Assembly (NCBI GenBank): GCA_019752535.1
Contig: JAIEMA010000035.1
Span: 1-64,000 of the forward strand
Source: Bacteriovoracaceae bacterium
GTDB lineage: Bacteria > Bdellovibrionota > Bacteriovoracia > Bacteriovoracales > Bacteriovoracaceae
Direction: 5' to 3'
DNA: 64,000 nt
Position numbers and translations under genes: made by a program. The notes beneath the pieces were generated by a model. The model made no database searches, was not told the DNA's origin, and saw nothing but the letters and a program-made list of their open reading frames with translations. Shown one piece after another: positions 8,878 through 27,756 of this stretch (position 1 is the first letter of the stretch; each line of letters starts with the position of its first letter).

Positions 8878-9669
8878 ATGCAAGATGTGTTAAAAAACTA
8901 TGTTGAAGGCATTGGAGCTTCCATTCTTGGACTCGTGAATGGTCTTGGGAAGTTTTCAAACTTTGCCGGACAAGTTTTTTTCTGGGCCATCCAGCCACCT
9001 ATTCGTTTAAAACTTTTGATGGATCAAATGTATTTCATTGGTAATAAAAGTCTTTTTATTATCGGACTGACTTCATTGTTTTCTGGAGCTGTGTTTGCTC
9101 TGCAAATGTACTTAGGCATTAAAGCCATCAATATGGATTCAATTGTTGGCCCAGTGGTGGCCATTTCATTGGCCAAAGAATTAGCACCTGTCTTTGCGGG
9201 TCTCGTTGTCGCGGGAAGATGCGGTTCGGCCATGGCCGCGCAAATTGGCTCAATGAAAGTCACTGAACAATTAGACGCTCTTGAAGTCATGGGTATCAAT
9301 GCTCATCAATATTTAGCGGTGCCACGAGTGGTGGGTGCGACTCTTTCGATGCCTCTTCTTTGCGGCATTTTTATGTTGATTGGAAATTTGGGCTCATGGC
9401 TTGTGGGTGTTCAAGTCCTAGGCATTGATGAAGTGATGTATTTTCAAAAGCTCTCAGATTTTATGACTCTCTCGCATGTGGCAGAGGGCTTAATTAAGTC
9501 AGCGGCTTTTGGTTTTCTCATTGGCATGATCGGTTCTTACCACGGCTTTGAAGTGAAAGGTGGTGCTGAAGGAGTAGGGAAGGGAACAAACCTTGCCGTT
9601 GTTTGGGGAATGGTCACAGTGCTTGTGAGTGATTATTTCATTTCTAGTTTTTTAACAAAGATTTTGTAG
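8878..9669 (+). CDS. mlaE: MlaE-type ABC lipid transport permease
   Basis: Inner-membrane permease of an MCE/Mla phospholipid transporter. The 263 residues contain several hydrophobic segments and family motifs: the ALQMYLGIKAI segment near residue 70, AKELAPVFAGLVVAGRCGSAMAAQIGSM at about 98-125 (coupling region), EQLDALEVMGI, and the C-terminal GSYHGFEVKGGAEGVG. MlaF and MlaD homologues follow directly, completing the core transporter; mlaB and mlaC partners are not visible here. Confidence 0.93.
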   Translation: MQDVLKNYVEGIGASILGLVNGLGKFSNFAGQVFFWAIQPPIRLKLLMDQMYFIGNKSLFIIGLTSLFSGAVFALQMYLGIKAINMDSIVGPVVAISLAKELAPVFAGLVVAGRCGSAMAAQIGSMKVTEQLDALEVMGINAHQYLAVPRVVGATLSMPLLCGIFMLIGNLGSWLVGVQVLGIDEVMYFQKLSDFMTLSHVAEGLIKSAAFGFLIGMIGSYHGFEVKGGAEGVGKGTNLAVVWGMVTVLVSDYFISSFLTKIL

Positions 9670-9675
9670 GATCGC

Positions 9676-10416
9676 ATGGCAGACGCAATTACATTTACTC
9701 ATGTTGTAAAAAAATATGGAGACGCCACAGTCTTAAATGACCTTACGTTTGGTATCCCTCAGGGCAAAATCACTACCATTTTAGGATTTTCTGGAGCAGG
9801 AAAATCAACTTTGATGAAACATATTTTGGGTCTTACTCGTCCTACAAGCGGCAAAATTGTCTCTCTCGGAAAAGATATGAGTGAGCTGGATGAGCTAGGT
9901 TTAAGAGAATTTCGTCGCAATTTTGGAATGGTTTTTCAGTACGCTGCTTTGTTTGATTTTTTGTCCGCGTTTGAAAACGTCGCTTTTCCTCTTAGAGAAT
10001 TTACTAAACTTAAAGAATCAGAAATTAAAAAGAAAGTTGAAAGTCTGATGCAGGCGGTGGAATTAGTTCCTGAGTCATGGCATCGACTTCCCTCAGAACT
10101 CTCTGGGGGCATGAGAAAAAGAGTAGGTCTGGCGCGGGCTTTGGCCCTCGAACCACGCATCATGCTCTACGATGAACCGACCTCTGGACTTGATCCCATC
10201 AGTACACAGGTGGTCAGTGATTTGATTGCGAGCACTGCTGCAAAAAATCAAGACCGTAAATTAACATCTCTCGTCATCTCACATGACGTGCGAGCATCAC
10301 TAAGAATTTCAGATCACATTATGTTTTTGGAGCGCGGTCAAATAGTCGAGTATTCCACTGTGGAAGGTTTCAAAAATTCCCAAAATCCAATTATTCGCAG
10401 ATTCCTTGAGTTGTAA
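9676..10416 (+). CDS. mlaF: MlaF-type ABC transporter ATP-binding protein
   Basis: ATPase of the lipid transporter. Walker A GFSGAGKST is at about residues 37-45, the signature LSGGMRKRV at about 141-149, Walker B with IMLYDEPTSGLDP after it, and the switch histidine in VISHDV. Length 246 is usual. It begins 6 bases after mlaE and should pair with that permease. Confidence 0.94.
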   Translation: MADAITFTHVVKKYGDATVLNDLTFGIPQGKITTILGFSGAGKSTLMKHILGLTRPTSGKIVSLGKDMSELDELGLREFRRNFGMVFQYAALFDFLSAFENVAFPLREFTKLKESEIKKKVESLMQAVELVPESWHRLPSELSGGMRKRVGLARALALEPRIMLYDEPTSGLDPISTQVVSDLIASTAAKNQDRKLTSLVISHDVRASLRISDHIMFLERGQIVEYSTVEGFKNSQNPIIRRFLEL

Positions 10417-10485: not shown

Positions 10486-11865
10486 TTGAGTGAATTTAAA
10501 GTCGGACTATTAGCTCTTTTTGCCTTGGCCAGTGTGGTCTTCATGTCTTTGAAGATTACTTCTAATAAAGGTGCCTTCGGAGACTATGTTCCTTATCAAA
10601 CTATTTTAGATGACGCTTCAGGGGTTGTTGAAAAAACTCCAATTAAAGTCGCCGGTATAAATGCAGGCCGAATTAAGAGTATTAAGCTTCAAGGTAACAA
10701 GGCCTTAGTCGATTTTGAAATGATCGATGATATTAAAATGACTCCAAATTCTAAACTTCAAGTCAAAAGCGTCGGCTTCTTAGGTGATAAGTATCTTGAT
10801 ATTGATTTAGGTGAAGCAACTGAGAAGCGCCTCGAGCCTGGCTCACTCGTTCCTGCAGCTGTGGCCGGAGGATTAGATAGTATTGGCAAAGATGCTGGAG
10901 CGATGATTAAAGAGATTAAGGAAGTGGCCATCCTTATTAAAGAATCTCTTCGTGAGCAGGATGGAACAAATCGCCTCGAGAAAATTACGGGGAACGTGAA
11001 GGATTTGACTGCAAGTCTTAAGCGTATGCTTGAAAAGAATGAAGGTAAGGTGGATGAGATCGTCGAAAATATCAAGCAGATGACTGAGCAGCTGCAATTT
11101 GAAACGGATCGTTTGCAAAAAGATTCTCTCATGGCCGATTTGACAAAAATTGGGCCAATTTTAGAGAAGGCTGATAAAGCCGTGGGTGATCTCAAAGATA
11201 TCATTTCGGATGTGAAAGATGGCAAGGGAACAGTGGGTAAGCTATTGCGTGATGATGCAGTCGTCGACCAGGTTTCTCAAACTCTCTCTAGCGTAAACCG
11301 TCTCGTGAATCGTATTAATAATATTGAAGCAGATATTGGTCTTTCTACGGGTGCTAATACTCGTCTTGGTAGTGATACACGCTTCGATCTGGATATTTAC
11401 CCTGCTCCTGAGAGATTTTTCCGCTTAGGTGTTGTCACCAATCAATTTGGTCCTAATGTGCCCAAAGAGCAGGAAAGTTGTTCTACGACTGATGGGGGTG
11501 CAGAGACTTGTACTCAGTCGACTAAAACTTATAAAAACCAATTCAAGTTCAACTTACAAATTGGCCGTCGAATTCAGCGATTTGGTATCCGCGCGGGTAT
11601 TATTGAAAGTACCGGTGGTGTGGGGCTAGATTACTATCTTCCAGACTGGGGTATAAGAACTGGACTTGAAGTCTTTAATTACCAAAAAGATGCTGGGCCT
11701 TATGCACGCTTAATATCAGAAGTGAAAATTTGGAATGTGCTCTTTGCCCGTGTAGCGGCTGAAGATTTGATTTCAAAAGAAGGTAAGCAGTCTGGAACTT
11801 TCAGCTTAGGTCTAAGATTTAATGATCAAGACTTAGCTGCTTTAATTGGCTTGTTGGCGCGGTGA
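10486..11865 (+). CDS. mlaD: MCE-domain lipid transport protein with C-terminal beta-rich domain
   Basis: Periplasmic substrate-binding part of the Mla-type transporter. An N-terminal membrane helix (about 5-22) is followed by an MCE domain (about 35-110), a charged helical, probably coiled-coil region (about 130-285), and about 160 residues of alternating strands rich in aromatic and glycine residues that resemble an outer-membrane barrel or beta domain. At 459 residues it is much longer than E. coli MlaD (about 180). The start is TTG at 10486, the first possible start after an in-frame stop, with GGAG upstream. The layout suggests a chain reaching from inner to outer membrane; this is inference. 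Confidence 0.88.
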   Translation: MSEFKVGLLALFALASVVFMSLKITSNKGAFGDYVPYQTILDDASGVVEKTPIKVAGINAGRIKSIKLQGNKALVDFEMIDDIKMTPNSKLQVKSVGFLGDKYLDIDLGEATEKRLEPGSLVPAAVAGGLDSIGKDAGAMIKEIKEVAILIKESLREQDGTNRLEKITGNVKDLTASLKRMLEKNEGKVDEIVENIKQMTEQLQFETDRLQKDSLMADLTKIGPILEKADKAVGDLKDIISDVKDGKGTVGKLLRDDAVVDQVSQTLSSVNRLVNRINNIEADIGLSTGANTRLGSDTRFDLDIYPAPERFFRLGVVTNQFGPNVPKEQESCSTTDGGAETCTQSTKTYKNQFKFNLQIGRRIQRFGIRAGIIESTGGVGLDYYLPDWGIRTGLEVFNYQKDAGPYARLISEVKIWNVLFARVAAEDLISKEGKQSGTFSLGLRFNDQDLAALIGLLAR

Positions 11866-11866
11866 G

Positions 11867-12625
11867 ATGATGCAAAAGAACTGGTTGATCCGAACAAAAT
11901 CCAATCATATTTTAGGGCCCGTCTCAAAAGAGAAGGTTCTGGAGCTCTATCATAATGGATCCATCCGTCCTGAAGATGAGATTTGTAGCGGTAATGGCTA
12001 TTGGTTCTTCTTGCGTGAGAAAGATCAAGTCGATCTCTATTTACTAGGAAGTCAGAAACAATGTTTTAATCCAATTAGTGAAGCAAAAGACGTGCTCACT
12101 GCCACTGGACATGTAGAAATTGATAAAGATCGATTAAAAGATGTCACTATCGTGGGTGGAATTGATATTTCATCCTTAAACGCAAAGCCTTCTGCTCCCA
12201 AAGCTCCTCCTGCAGCAGTCACGAAGCCTGTTGAGAGAGCTGCAGCTCCAGCGAAAGCGGCACCTGTAGCAAAGGCTGAAATAGATGAAGAGCCTGAGCC
12301 AGCGGCCCCTATCCCGCTAAGGCCTAAAGCCTCTGTCACTCCGTCTCCAACGCCAGTGGCACCCGGCAAGCCTAAGAAAAAAGAATCCGAAGCGGCTCCA
12401 GAGGTGCCAAAGTCCAAAGTTTCTACAAAAAAGAAACTCATGAATGACAAAGTGGTCATGGTGAGCACGGTTCTTATTCTGGTTGTATTGGCAGGTGTTC
12501 TTTATTTTAGAAAAAGAATATTGAAAGAATTCATTCAAGGCGCCGTTCAAACTGTTATTCCAGCAGCGTATGCTCAAGATCCCATAAAAGTAGAAGCTAA
12601 AAAAAAAGTCTTTTTCAATCTATAA
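11867..12625 (+). CDS. GYF-like domain membrane protein, frame-0 product
   Basis: An N-terminal GYF_2-like module (about residues 3-55, WLIRTKSNHILGPV then GYWFFLRE) precedes a long Ala/Pro/Lys-rich linker (about 100-195) and one membrane helix (about 203-220, VVMVSTVLILVVLAGVLYF). The frame ends soon after an AAYAQD segment, just past a run of nine A (12599-12607). ATG 11867 starts 1 base after the mlaD stop; ATG 11870 is also possible. The following open frame (12607-13755) continues as protein-like sequence in -1, so this ORF is probably the 5' part of a larger gene. Linker composition makes the middle low-complexity. Confidence 0.8.
   Translation: MMQKNWLIRTKSNHILGPVSKEKVLELYHNGSIRPEDEICSGNGYWFFLREKDQVDLYLLGSQKQCFNPISEAKDVLTATGHVEIDKDRLKDVTIVGGIDISSLNAKPSAPKAPPAAVTKPVERAAAPAKAAPVAKAEIDEEPEPAAPIPLRPKASVTPSPTPVAPGKPKKKESEAAPEVPKSKVSTKKKLMNDKVVMVSTVLILVVLAGVLYFRKRILKEFIQGAVQTVIPAAYAQDPIKVEAKKKVFFNL
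12599..12607 (+). other. Run of nine A at a frame break, possible recoding site
   Basis: Nine consecutive A lie six codons before the frame-0 stop at 12623-12625. A one-base backward slip moves reading into the frame that continues to 13755. The run contains the all-A form of a slippery heptamer and is long enough for RNA-polymerase slippage. The hairpin GTAGCC/GGCTAC at 12659-12675 is too far downstream for a classical ribosomal frameshift stimulator. Confidence 0.6.
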
Positions 12626-13755
12626 GCGGAAATGACGTTTACTCATTTCAACTCTCCGGTAGCCTCGATGGCTACGCCCTAGAAAGCGTTTTTAAAAAAG
12701 TAAGACTCGATTGCAAAAATATGGATGACCCTCTTTTGCATGTGGCACTCATTCTCCATAACCCTCAGACTGCGAATGAAGTCTTTTTGCTCTCGCTGAG
12801 AGATTGTGTTGTGACACTACCCAAGGATCATATTCTCAGAGACTGGGTTCAGCGCAAGAGTTTGATTCAAGAGACGGCAGCTTCAAAAATGATTTTAAAC
12901 CTTCTTGAAGGTGAACTGAAAGATATCTGGGGATTTGATCAAGCGATCACTCCCAAGCAGCGTCAGACGCTTATTCATCTATTGGATGAACTTGAAAGTC
13001 TTCCTCCCTATCTTGACTACACACTCTTTCAAATTGTGGGTTATTTAAAACTTGGCAATTGGGTTAGAGCGGAAAAAATTATGTCTAATTGGCTTGAGGT
13101 TGATCCCATTGAAAGGATGAATCAGACTCCCAAAAGACGAGACACCTTATCAAAGATATCCATTCAGTATGTGGAGAGGCTGTTAGAGACGATTGAGAAG
13201 CATAGAAATGAGCGAGTCATTGTTGATGAGTTTTTCCAGGGAATAAAAGATTTTTACTCTGAGGTTGAAGTGGTCAAGCTAGCGGAGTCATTCCAAGGCC
13301 GCAGCGAGAGAGATTTATTAGATAAATTTTCACTTAGCTACTATCGTCAGCAAAATCCTGGTTTTTCATCATGGATTATGAACCGTGAGCTTGAGGGGAG
13401 ACAGAGAAATAAATTTCTTGATGAATTTTTCGATAAGCCTGAGTCTAAGAATGAAAGTTGGGTTTTTTTGGGAAGAATGCCTCTTGTGGCCAAACACCGT
13501 GAGCAGCTCGCTTTAAGAATGGTTGATCTCGTTTCTAAAAATCCAAAACTTTTTTACACATTATCGAGTGATGAGGAGATGAAAGGTGTGTTGGCCCGCA
13601 TTGCTCCGATTGTTTTAAAGAGTTTTTTAAATGAGAAAAGAAAATTCTATCTAAAAGCTTTCAAGGAAGACTCTAAAGATGCCTGGTCTTTAGCCCAACT
13701 TGTGGAGATGGGTCAGATAGATGAGGATTTGATCAAAAGAATATTAGAGAGATGA
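12607..13755 (+). CDS. Unrecognised protein, probably the 3' part of the GYF-domain gene
   Basis: Function not recognised. The first ATG is at 12721 (344 residues) but has no ribosome-binding site, and the same frame is open back to 12601 with convincing protein sequence (SGNDVYSFQLSGSLDGYAL) and no ATG, GTG or TTG. Translation therefore most likely enters from the preceding GYF ORF by a -1 shift at the A9 run, giving a fused protein of about 629 residues with this part beyond the membrane helix. The sequence is helical and charged, somewhat like a helical repeat. Its TGA overlaps the next ATG by 4 bases. Confidence 0.7.
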   Translation, partial: SLFQSISGNDVYSFQLSGSLDGYALESVFKKVRLDCKNMDDPLLHVALILHNPQTANEVFLLSLRDCVVTLPKDHILRDWVQRKSLIQETAASKMILNLLEGELKDIWGFDQAITPKQRQTLIHLLDELESLPPYLDYTLFQIVGYLKLGNWVRAEKIMSNWLEVDPIERMNQTPKRRDTLSKISIQYVERLLETIEKHRNERVIVDEFFQGIKDFYSEVEVVKLAESFQGRSERDLLDKFSLSYYRQQNPGFSSWIMNRELEGRQRNKFLDEFFDKPESKNESWVFLGRMPLVAKHREQLALRMVDLVSKNPKLFYTLSSDEEMKGVLARIAPIVLKSFLNEKRKFYLKAFKEDSKDAWSLAQLVEMGQIDEDLIKRILER

Positions 13756-14339
13756 ATCTTCCTAAAGATTATTTACAGCCAGAGTTTTTCCGTTTCGGAT
13801 GGGATCAAGTCTTCTTTGTGGAGAATGTCGCCCAATTGACTAAGTTTAAAGAAAACTGCCATTTGGTGGAGCTTGGTGCAGGAAGTGGTGTGATTAGTTG
13901 TGAGTTATCGAAGAAAATTCAAATCGAATCCTGTGATTTATTAGAATTTCAAAAAGAGGAATGGGAGTCCTATCTTATTCCCAATCTTGAGCATCAATCA
14001 TCGATAAAAAATCCACGATTTCATTGGGGAAAAGTTTCTGAGTTTAATTTAGATTGCAGTATTAAGGCCGATCTTGTGGTTTGCAATCCACCCTATTTTG
14101 TTCCAAGAGATGGTAGGGCTTCGGCCGATCCTCGACGAAACATCGCTCATCGCTTTGTTATTGATTCTTGGCAAGACTGGATTGATGCCATGGTGAGAAC
14201 TCTCAAGCCTGATGGGGAGGCTTTTTGGCTTCATAGGGATCCTGGTCCCTCAGGGAAGCCCATTTTTCCAGAAGGCTATGACTGGCAGCATGTCGTGAGA
14301 TCAAGTCGAATGCGGATTATTCGTCTGGGCCATTTGTAA
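13752..14339 (+). CDS. TrmN6-like SAM-dependent methyltransferase
   Basis: Class I methyltransferase of the N6-adenine type. The SAM motif ELGAGSGVIS is at about residues 40-49 and the catalytic NPPYF at 112-116, followed by DPRRNIAHR, typical of tRNA1(Val) A37 N6-methyltransferases (YfiC/TrmN6). At 195 residues it is shorter than E. coli YfiC (about 245). The ATG overlaps the preceding stop (ATGA). The last 39 bases overlap the convergent dciA gene. RNA substrate is inferred from the NPPY family; another N6-methyltransferase role is possible. Confidence 0.75.
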   Translation: MNLPKDYLQPEFFRFGWDQVFFVENVAQLTKFKENCHLVELGAGSGVISCELSKKIQIESCDLLEFQKEEWESYLIPNLEHQSSIKNPRFHWGKVSEFNLDCSIKADLVVCNPPYFVPRDGRASADPRRNIAHRFVIDSWQDWIDAMVRTLKPDGEAFWLHRDPGPSGKPIFPEGYDWQHVVRSSRMRIIRLGHL

Positions 14340-27726: not shown

Positions 27727-27756
27727 AAAAAGGCTCCTTTCGGAGCCTTTTTTTTT
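27725..27756. terminator. Bidirectional intrinsic terminator
   Basis: Stem AAAGGCTCC / GGAGCCTTT (27729-27737 and 27742-27750), flanked by seven A on the left and a run of nine T on the right. It ends both the plus-strand gene before it and the minus-strand nuo operon, whose last stop codon (27755-27757) touches the T run. Confidence 0.9.

Follow-up and report, generated by a model that had tools for sequence, protein, structure and literature searches.

The stretch of DNA analysed here (the window; 64,000 nucleotides) contains the genes mlaE, mlaF, and mlaD and, one base beyond the mlaD stop codon, the start of a gene for a protein with a GYF-type domain (Table 1). Direct reading of the sequence places the frame 0 start at ATG 11867, with a second ATG at 11870. 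Near its 3′ end, this open reading frame (ORF1) includes nine consecutive A residues (A9) in codon phase: GCT AAA AAA AAA GTC TTT TTC AAT CTA TAA. The −1 frame is closed by a TAA codon (12598-12600) directly before A9, and thereafter is open as far as TGA 13753-13755. Its earliest potential start codon (ATG, GTG, or TTG) lies 3′ of the codon for an invariant Cys residue. Translation that changed frame at the run would join 247 residues to 382, for a product of 629. The initial annotation had placed ORF1, the A9 run, and the −1 frame exactly where Table 1 does, with no start codon before 12721 and a shift product of about 629 residues; all of this held.

Table 1. Features of the GYF gene and its neighbours in the window
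Feature	Position	Strand	Basis
mlaE	8878-9669	+	Pfam MlaE
mlaF	9676-10416	+	Pfam ABC_tran
mlaD, upstream neighbour in the same operon	10486-11865	+	Pfam MlaD
ORF1, frame 0, short product of 252 aa: cytoplasmic GYF domain, Ala/Pro/Lys linker, one transmembrane helix, short tail	11867-12625	+	Sequence; conservation of N-terminus
GYF-type domain	11870-12103	+	PF14237 below cut-off; AlphaFold model and PDB fold matches
Predicted transmembrane helix VVMVSTVLILVVLAGVLY, 5′ of the putative slip site	12452-12505	+	Hydropathy 2.76
Putative A9 slip site, codons AAA AAA AAA	12599-12607	+	Sequence; A9-A14 at the orthologous position in relatives
Stop codon (TAA) that ends the short product, sixth codon past A9	12623-12625	+	Sequence
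−1 frame ORF (ORF2), reachable by frame change only	12601-13755	+	TAA 12598-12600; earliest potential start codon at 12721
C-terminal domain, 382 aa: N-terminal beta hairpin and TPR-like alpha-solenoid, probably periplasmic	12607-13752	+	AlphaFold, HMM, purifying selection
Invariant Cys36 codon	12712-12714	+	Invariant in 53/53 sequences
Invariant Cys67 codon; likely disulfide with Cys36	12805-12807	+	Invariance
First ATG of the −1 frame, within the C-terminal domain after Cys36	12721-12723	+	Sequence
Methyltransferase-like gene, downstream	13752-14339	+	Start overlaps ORF2 stop as ATGA

Upstream, the order mlaE-mlaF-mlaD is kept in 60 of the 64 loci with full flanks; downstream, the methyltransferase gene adjoins in 56 of the 64. 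The mlaEFD neighbourhood implies that the function of the GYF gene probably concerns the cell envelope, an inference drawn from the operon. At the ATGA overlap (13752-13755), slippage might conceivably alter methyltransferase translation through coupling. Such an effect of coupling is reported for spa13/spa32 (PMC5009743).

Runs of nine A are scarce in the window (2 observed versus 7.0 expected), and the genome of 3.49 Mb contains 89 A9 matches. The window's sole other A9/T9 forms the T-run of a terminator (hairpin GGCTCC..GGAGCC-T9; 27730-27756) between two convergent genes. Inspection of just 30 A9 loci of the genome revealed another A9 outside the window (L271; G000:C9 near 21888, minus strand), where about 209 codons are open, the stop comes 2 codons past the run, and the −1 frame, beginning at the run, stays open for 131 codons. 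This locus could be a second slip gene.

The A Run in Related Genomes

The survey covered 129 genomes of the Bacteriovoracaceae sensu lato (Bdellovibrionota), predatory bacteria that include Bacteriovorax and Halobacteriovorax. The C-terminal domain (C-domain) used alone as a query against genome contigs found no relatives, so the search relied on the conserved GYF N-terminus, which detected the gene in 123 genomes. All 123 loci were extracted and read, and the C-domain was located by a frame-blind HMM, which matched in 94. The GYF part and the C-domain belong to a single gene or flank a single junction in 89 loci from 32 genera.

Between these two parts, 87 of the 89 loci contain a run of at least 9 A (range A9-A14), a recurrence not attributable to chance; by genus, the run is kept in 31 of 32. 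The junction is constant: the run lies mostly 5-9 nucleotides 5′ of the C-domain model start, and mostly 34-37 codons separate it from the first Cys. At other sites in these genes, only 20% of KKK stretches are encoded as A9, so the amino acid sequence does not by itself account for conservation of the run. Runs of at least 9 A occur in 3 of 22 loci without the C-domain, and in none of the 5 loci with a stand-alone C-domain gene. The association of run with C-domain gives a Fisher p of 2e-19, uncorrected for relatedness. This value overstates independence, given the relatedness of the species and the poor resolution of the gene tree. When judged by independent pairs on supported branches, of which the 78-residue tree provides few, the association did not reach significance.

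Relative to the GYF part, the C-domain is shifted by −1 in 72 of the 89 loci and by +1 in 2 (L017 and L044), and 15 loci have it in frame; the first run is +1 in L024, L042, and L073. The run is thus under tighter conservation than the frame. Most of the in-frame (fused) genes still hold A9 or A10 at the same position, and on the gene tree the fused and shifted states swap repeatedly, at weakly supported forks. Where a shift is required, the run is A9 in 13 loci, A10 in 52, A11 in 8, A12 in 4, and A14 in 1, the mode being A10; no required-shift run of 8 A was found, in a search that admitted them.

Five relatives were compared with the window: four sister species and one genome of another genus. 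In each, the GYF frame ends in KKK at A10 or A11, and the second domain follows one frame back (identity 38-50% within the genus, 22% outside). The sister species runs are A10 at the same −1 relation. Alignment with related genomes had been proposed in the initial annotation as a check, and its outcome is favourable: the run and the −1 relation are kept in all five species of the genus, as in the 72 family loci.

Off-frame stops fall within 8 codons of the run in 85% of cases, versus an off-frame baseline of 54-68%. Selection for early off-frame stops after the run was considered, and is weakened by the height of that baseline.

Two groups of loci depart from the common arrangement. Only in L108 and L120 (genus g17) do the GYF part and C-domain share a frame without 9 or more consecutive A in the sequence that joins them; presumably these make the long product only. 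Eleven genomes of genus g14 (L072, L083, L085, L094, L096, L098, L100, L102, L104, L111, and L114) lack the C-domain. There, the gene stops just past the membrane helix, and a YrdC/Sua5-like gene mostly is next (in those printed). The short form therefore suffices in g14.

Domains on Either Side of the Run

The N-terminal part matches Pfam GYF_2 (PF14237) in the window at 12.9 bits, under the gathering cut-off of 25.8; among relatives, 12 of 16 match at E <= 0.1, the best at 5e-5. Its AlphaFold model (pLDDT 83) has as its ten best PDB fold matches only GYF domains (probability 0.92-1.0, E 0.01-0.1), that of Myxococcus GltJ among them. The N-terminal part, as modelled, has the GYF fold. The linker, in the window (12200-12440) as in relatives, includes a recurrent Pro-rich stretch, ..PSPTPxxPGKxKKK... 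Proline-rich motifs are bound by GYF domains, and the linker may be a ligand for its own or a sister GYF domain.

Both frames are under selection. For the downstream frame, comparisons of close species give pS values of 0.65-0.84, near saturation, versus pN values of 0.07-0.25, revealing strong purifying selection; the gene is not in decay. The C-domain AlphaFold model, made with 53 relatives, is confident (pLDDT 93.8, pTM 0.92), and shows a beta hairpin followed by an alpha-solenoid. Its best PDB matches are largely TPR-type solenoids and are weak (E 0.05, TM-score about 0.2); a TPR sequence motif is found only as a weak TPR_1 match in 1 of 53 members; and searches of Pfam and PDB sequences with the C-domain returned nothing useful. 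The initial annotation had judged the −1 frame to read as good protein, and this held on two grounds, purifying selection and the confident fold model.

Residues Cys36 and Cys67 are invariant in all 53 sequences. From sequence alone, they likely form a disulfide, which fits an oxidising compartment. In five deep-branching relatives, the C-domain is encoded by a stand-alone gene with its own start and signal peptide; a hydrophobic leader is present on the separate C-domain genes of L074, L122, L123, and L129. In slip-site genes, the C-domain is without its own signal peptide. Other start signals also are lacking: between the run and the first Cys there is no ATG, GTG, or TTG in 41 of the 73 slip-site loci, and no ATG in 64 (the window is included in both counts). 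Of the 73, 64 encode a transmembrane helix ahead of the first slip site. It is likely that the C-domain is periplasmic, and that the ORF1 transmembrane helix is its exit from the cytoplasm.

Proposed Slippage and Its Alternatives

The probable explanation is programmed slippage, most likely by RNA polymerase, to make both a short and a long protein. Programmed slippage is well supported by comparison; the molecular step is inferred, without mRNA or protein evidence. In this model, the gene would be one functional unit with two readings. Template-length mRNA would be translated in frame 0 to position 12625, to make the 252-residue inner-membrane protein with its cytoplasmic GYF domain. In a fraction of transcripts, RNA polymerase would slip on A9; where this led to the gain of one A (or the loss of two), the ribosome would enter the downstream frame. 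The slipped transcripts would encode the 629-residue protein (630 counting the inserted A), which adds a periplasmic TPR-like domain of about 380 residues. Tract length would set the ratio of long to short product. In the fused genes with A9 or A10, slippage would give the short form, as it does in Thermus dnaX. The initial annotation had proposed two products, the short one ending past the membrane helix and the long one carrying a further domain, a view that comparison supports.

That both products are needed is likewise inferred, and some loci count against it. L108 and L120 are fused without a run of at least 9 A, and the long form alone is enough there; g14 and others survive on the short form only.

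The rival that survives best is ribosomal −1 frameshifting, in which the long product arises on A AAA AAA inside the run, as in E. coli dnaX or IS elements. In its favour, every run of at least 9 A holds such heptamers in phase, making ribosomal shifting possible; the −1 relation predominates; and cassettes with A7, A9, and A11 gave 10, 40, and 63% shift in E. coli (PMC3711429). Against it, no 8-A run serves as a shift site, yet 7 would do for the ribosome. No stem-loop was found downstream of the run (mean z −0.2 over 73 sites, 2 of them below −2; window −0.77), and upstream matches of at least 4 nucleotides to a Shine-Dalgarno (SD) sequence, present at 19% of sites, barely exceed the 15% at control positions in the same genes. 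Finally, there are the +1 junctions and +1 first runs. Ribosomal shifting therefore seems unlikely: because runs are never shorter than nine, no hairpin stimulator was found, SD matches are barely above control, and +1 cases exist, RNA polymerase is favoured over the ribosome by a clear margin, although this too is inference. The initial annotation's description of the locus as dnaX-type recoding was fitting, although the evidence favours slippage by RNA polymerase, as in Thermus, over the ribosomal −1 shift of E. coli.

Phase variation, in which replication mutates the tract and thereby toggles the long form on and off, has little to recommend it. Homopolymer tracts are hypermutable, and the frame relation has flipped between species. 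However, the three frames are far from equally represented (chi-square p 5e-21, uncorrected for relatedness), tract length is held tightly at A10, and the run is kept in fused and split states alike.

Also improbable are two separate genes, the second translated via re-initiation. The five deep-branching relatives are so arranged, and thus partly meet the refutation specified in the initial annotation, namely relatives having two genes with their own start signals. Nevertheless, they support the one-gene reading, because their C-domain comes with a start codon and a signal peptide of its own and that of the window has neither: its first start codon comes only at residue 39, beyond the invariant Cys.

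That the homopolymer was missequenced, or has newly mutated to shift the frame, was the alternative raised by the initial annotation. It had in its favour a 76-contig assembly and the error-prone nature of homopolymers, but is virtually ruled out by the same split at A10 in the same −1 relation in four sister species, by the −1 relation in 72 loci and the concordance of many independent assemblies, by the agreement of two isolate (non-metagenome) records (L182 with L046, L185 with L090), and by purifying selection on the downstream frame. The exact number of A residues in this one assembly could still be miscounted, read support being absent.

Slippage may not be confined to the main run. A second run of at least 9 A, additional or alternative, precedes the membrane helix in 48 of the 89 loci, and in the large genus g24 a run occupies this position in 23 of 24. 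This upstream run keeps the frame in most cases, and a slip at it would, for most loci, bring translation to a stop only a few codons on; in L011, L040, L044, L106, and L119, it is the required shift site. Judged from sequence alone, upstream slippage could give a third product, a soluble GYF-linker protein. A bolder reading, tenable but somewhat less likely than not, is of a family-wide, frame-indifferent slippage switch, in which selection holds the tract (at about A10) and the second run gives a soluble GYF-only product. If so, the template would encode the short product in most species but the long one in the rest, and the relative amounts of soluble, membrane-bound, and periplasm-spanning forms would be determined by one gene.

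Comparison with Known Systems

Slippage as a mechanism has been described before; what likely is new, as far as could be checked, is the gene family, together with its breadth and frame-indifference. A search of the open-access literature, with Bdellovibrio and Halobacteriovorax as angles, found no report of the gene (subscription journals and the GeneTack tables were outside its scope), and the two main recoding papers do not mention it. Few cellular genes have slippage so broadly conserved; dnaX is the one usually cited. The persistence of the A-run across genera, as the surrounding sequence and even the frame change, makes it possible to ask what fixes the product ratio. Annotation pipelines probably call this gene broken, or two genes, in most genomes of the family, and a periplasmic protein encoded beside mlaEFD probably has been overlooked.

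In domain order, the protein resembles Bdellovibrio bacteriovorus Bd0075, a predation-linked protein with a cytoplasmic GYF domain and, C-terminal to it, extracytoplasmic TPR domains (PMC12034629). However, Bd0075 is a single uninterrupted protein, and no orthology has been shown. Other families of the phylum include uninterrupted GYF-TM-TPR-like genes of about 590-690 residues, similar to Bd0075 (L237, L245, L246, and L247; those of the Bdellovibrio-like L245 and L246 encode about 590), as well as genes with GYF-TM only (L230-L236).

Coding runs of A9-A10 are shared with dnaX, both that of Thermus thermophilus, where transcriptional slippage occurs on A9 (PMC1088944, PMC5009743), and an A10 dnaX cluster (PMC3711429). 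As in Thermus, short and long products would have a common N-terminus, and either may be the slipped one. The proteins differ, and the in-frame product is the long form in Thermus but usually the short form here. Transcriptional slippage also operates in Shigella mxiE and spa13 (PMC1088944, PMC5009743), where, as proposed here, the longer product requires it; those are type III secretion genes, and mxiE has a T run.

A further parallel is tssM1 of Citrobacter rodentium (PMC4256274), which likewise encodes an inner-membrane protein, has a poly-A run just ahead of an early stop, and appends a C-terminal extracytoplasmic part through slippage. The proteins are unrelated, and slippage there was found in only two tssM genes, in contrast to a run kept in nearly the whole family here. 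For tssM1, polymerase slippage was argued on like grounds and later shown by mass spectrometry of cDNA (PMC4256274). Its A11 run yields 20-25% long product, and both length variants, together with their ratio, are required for function.
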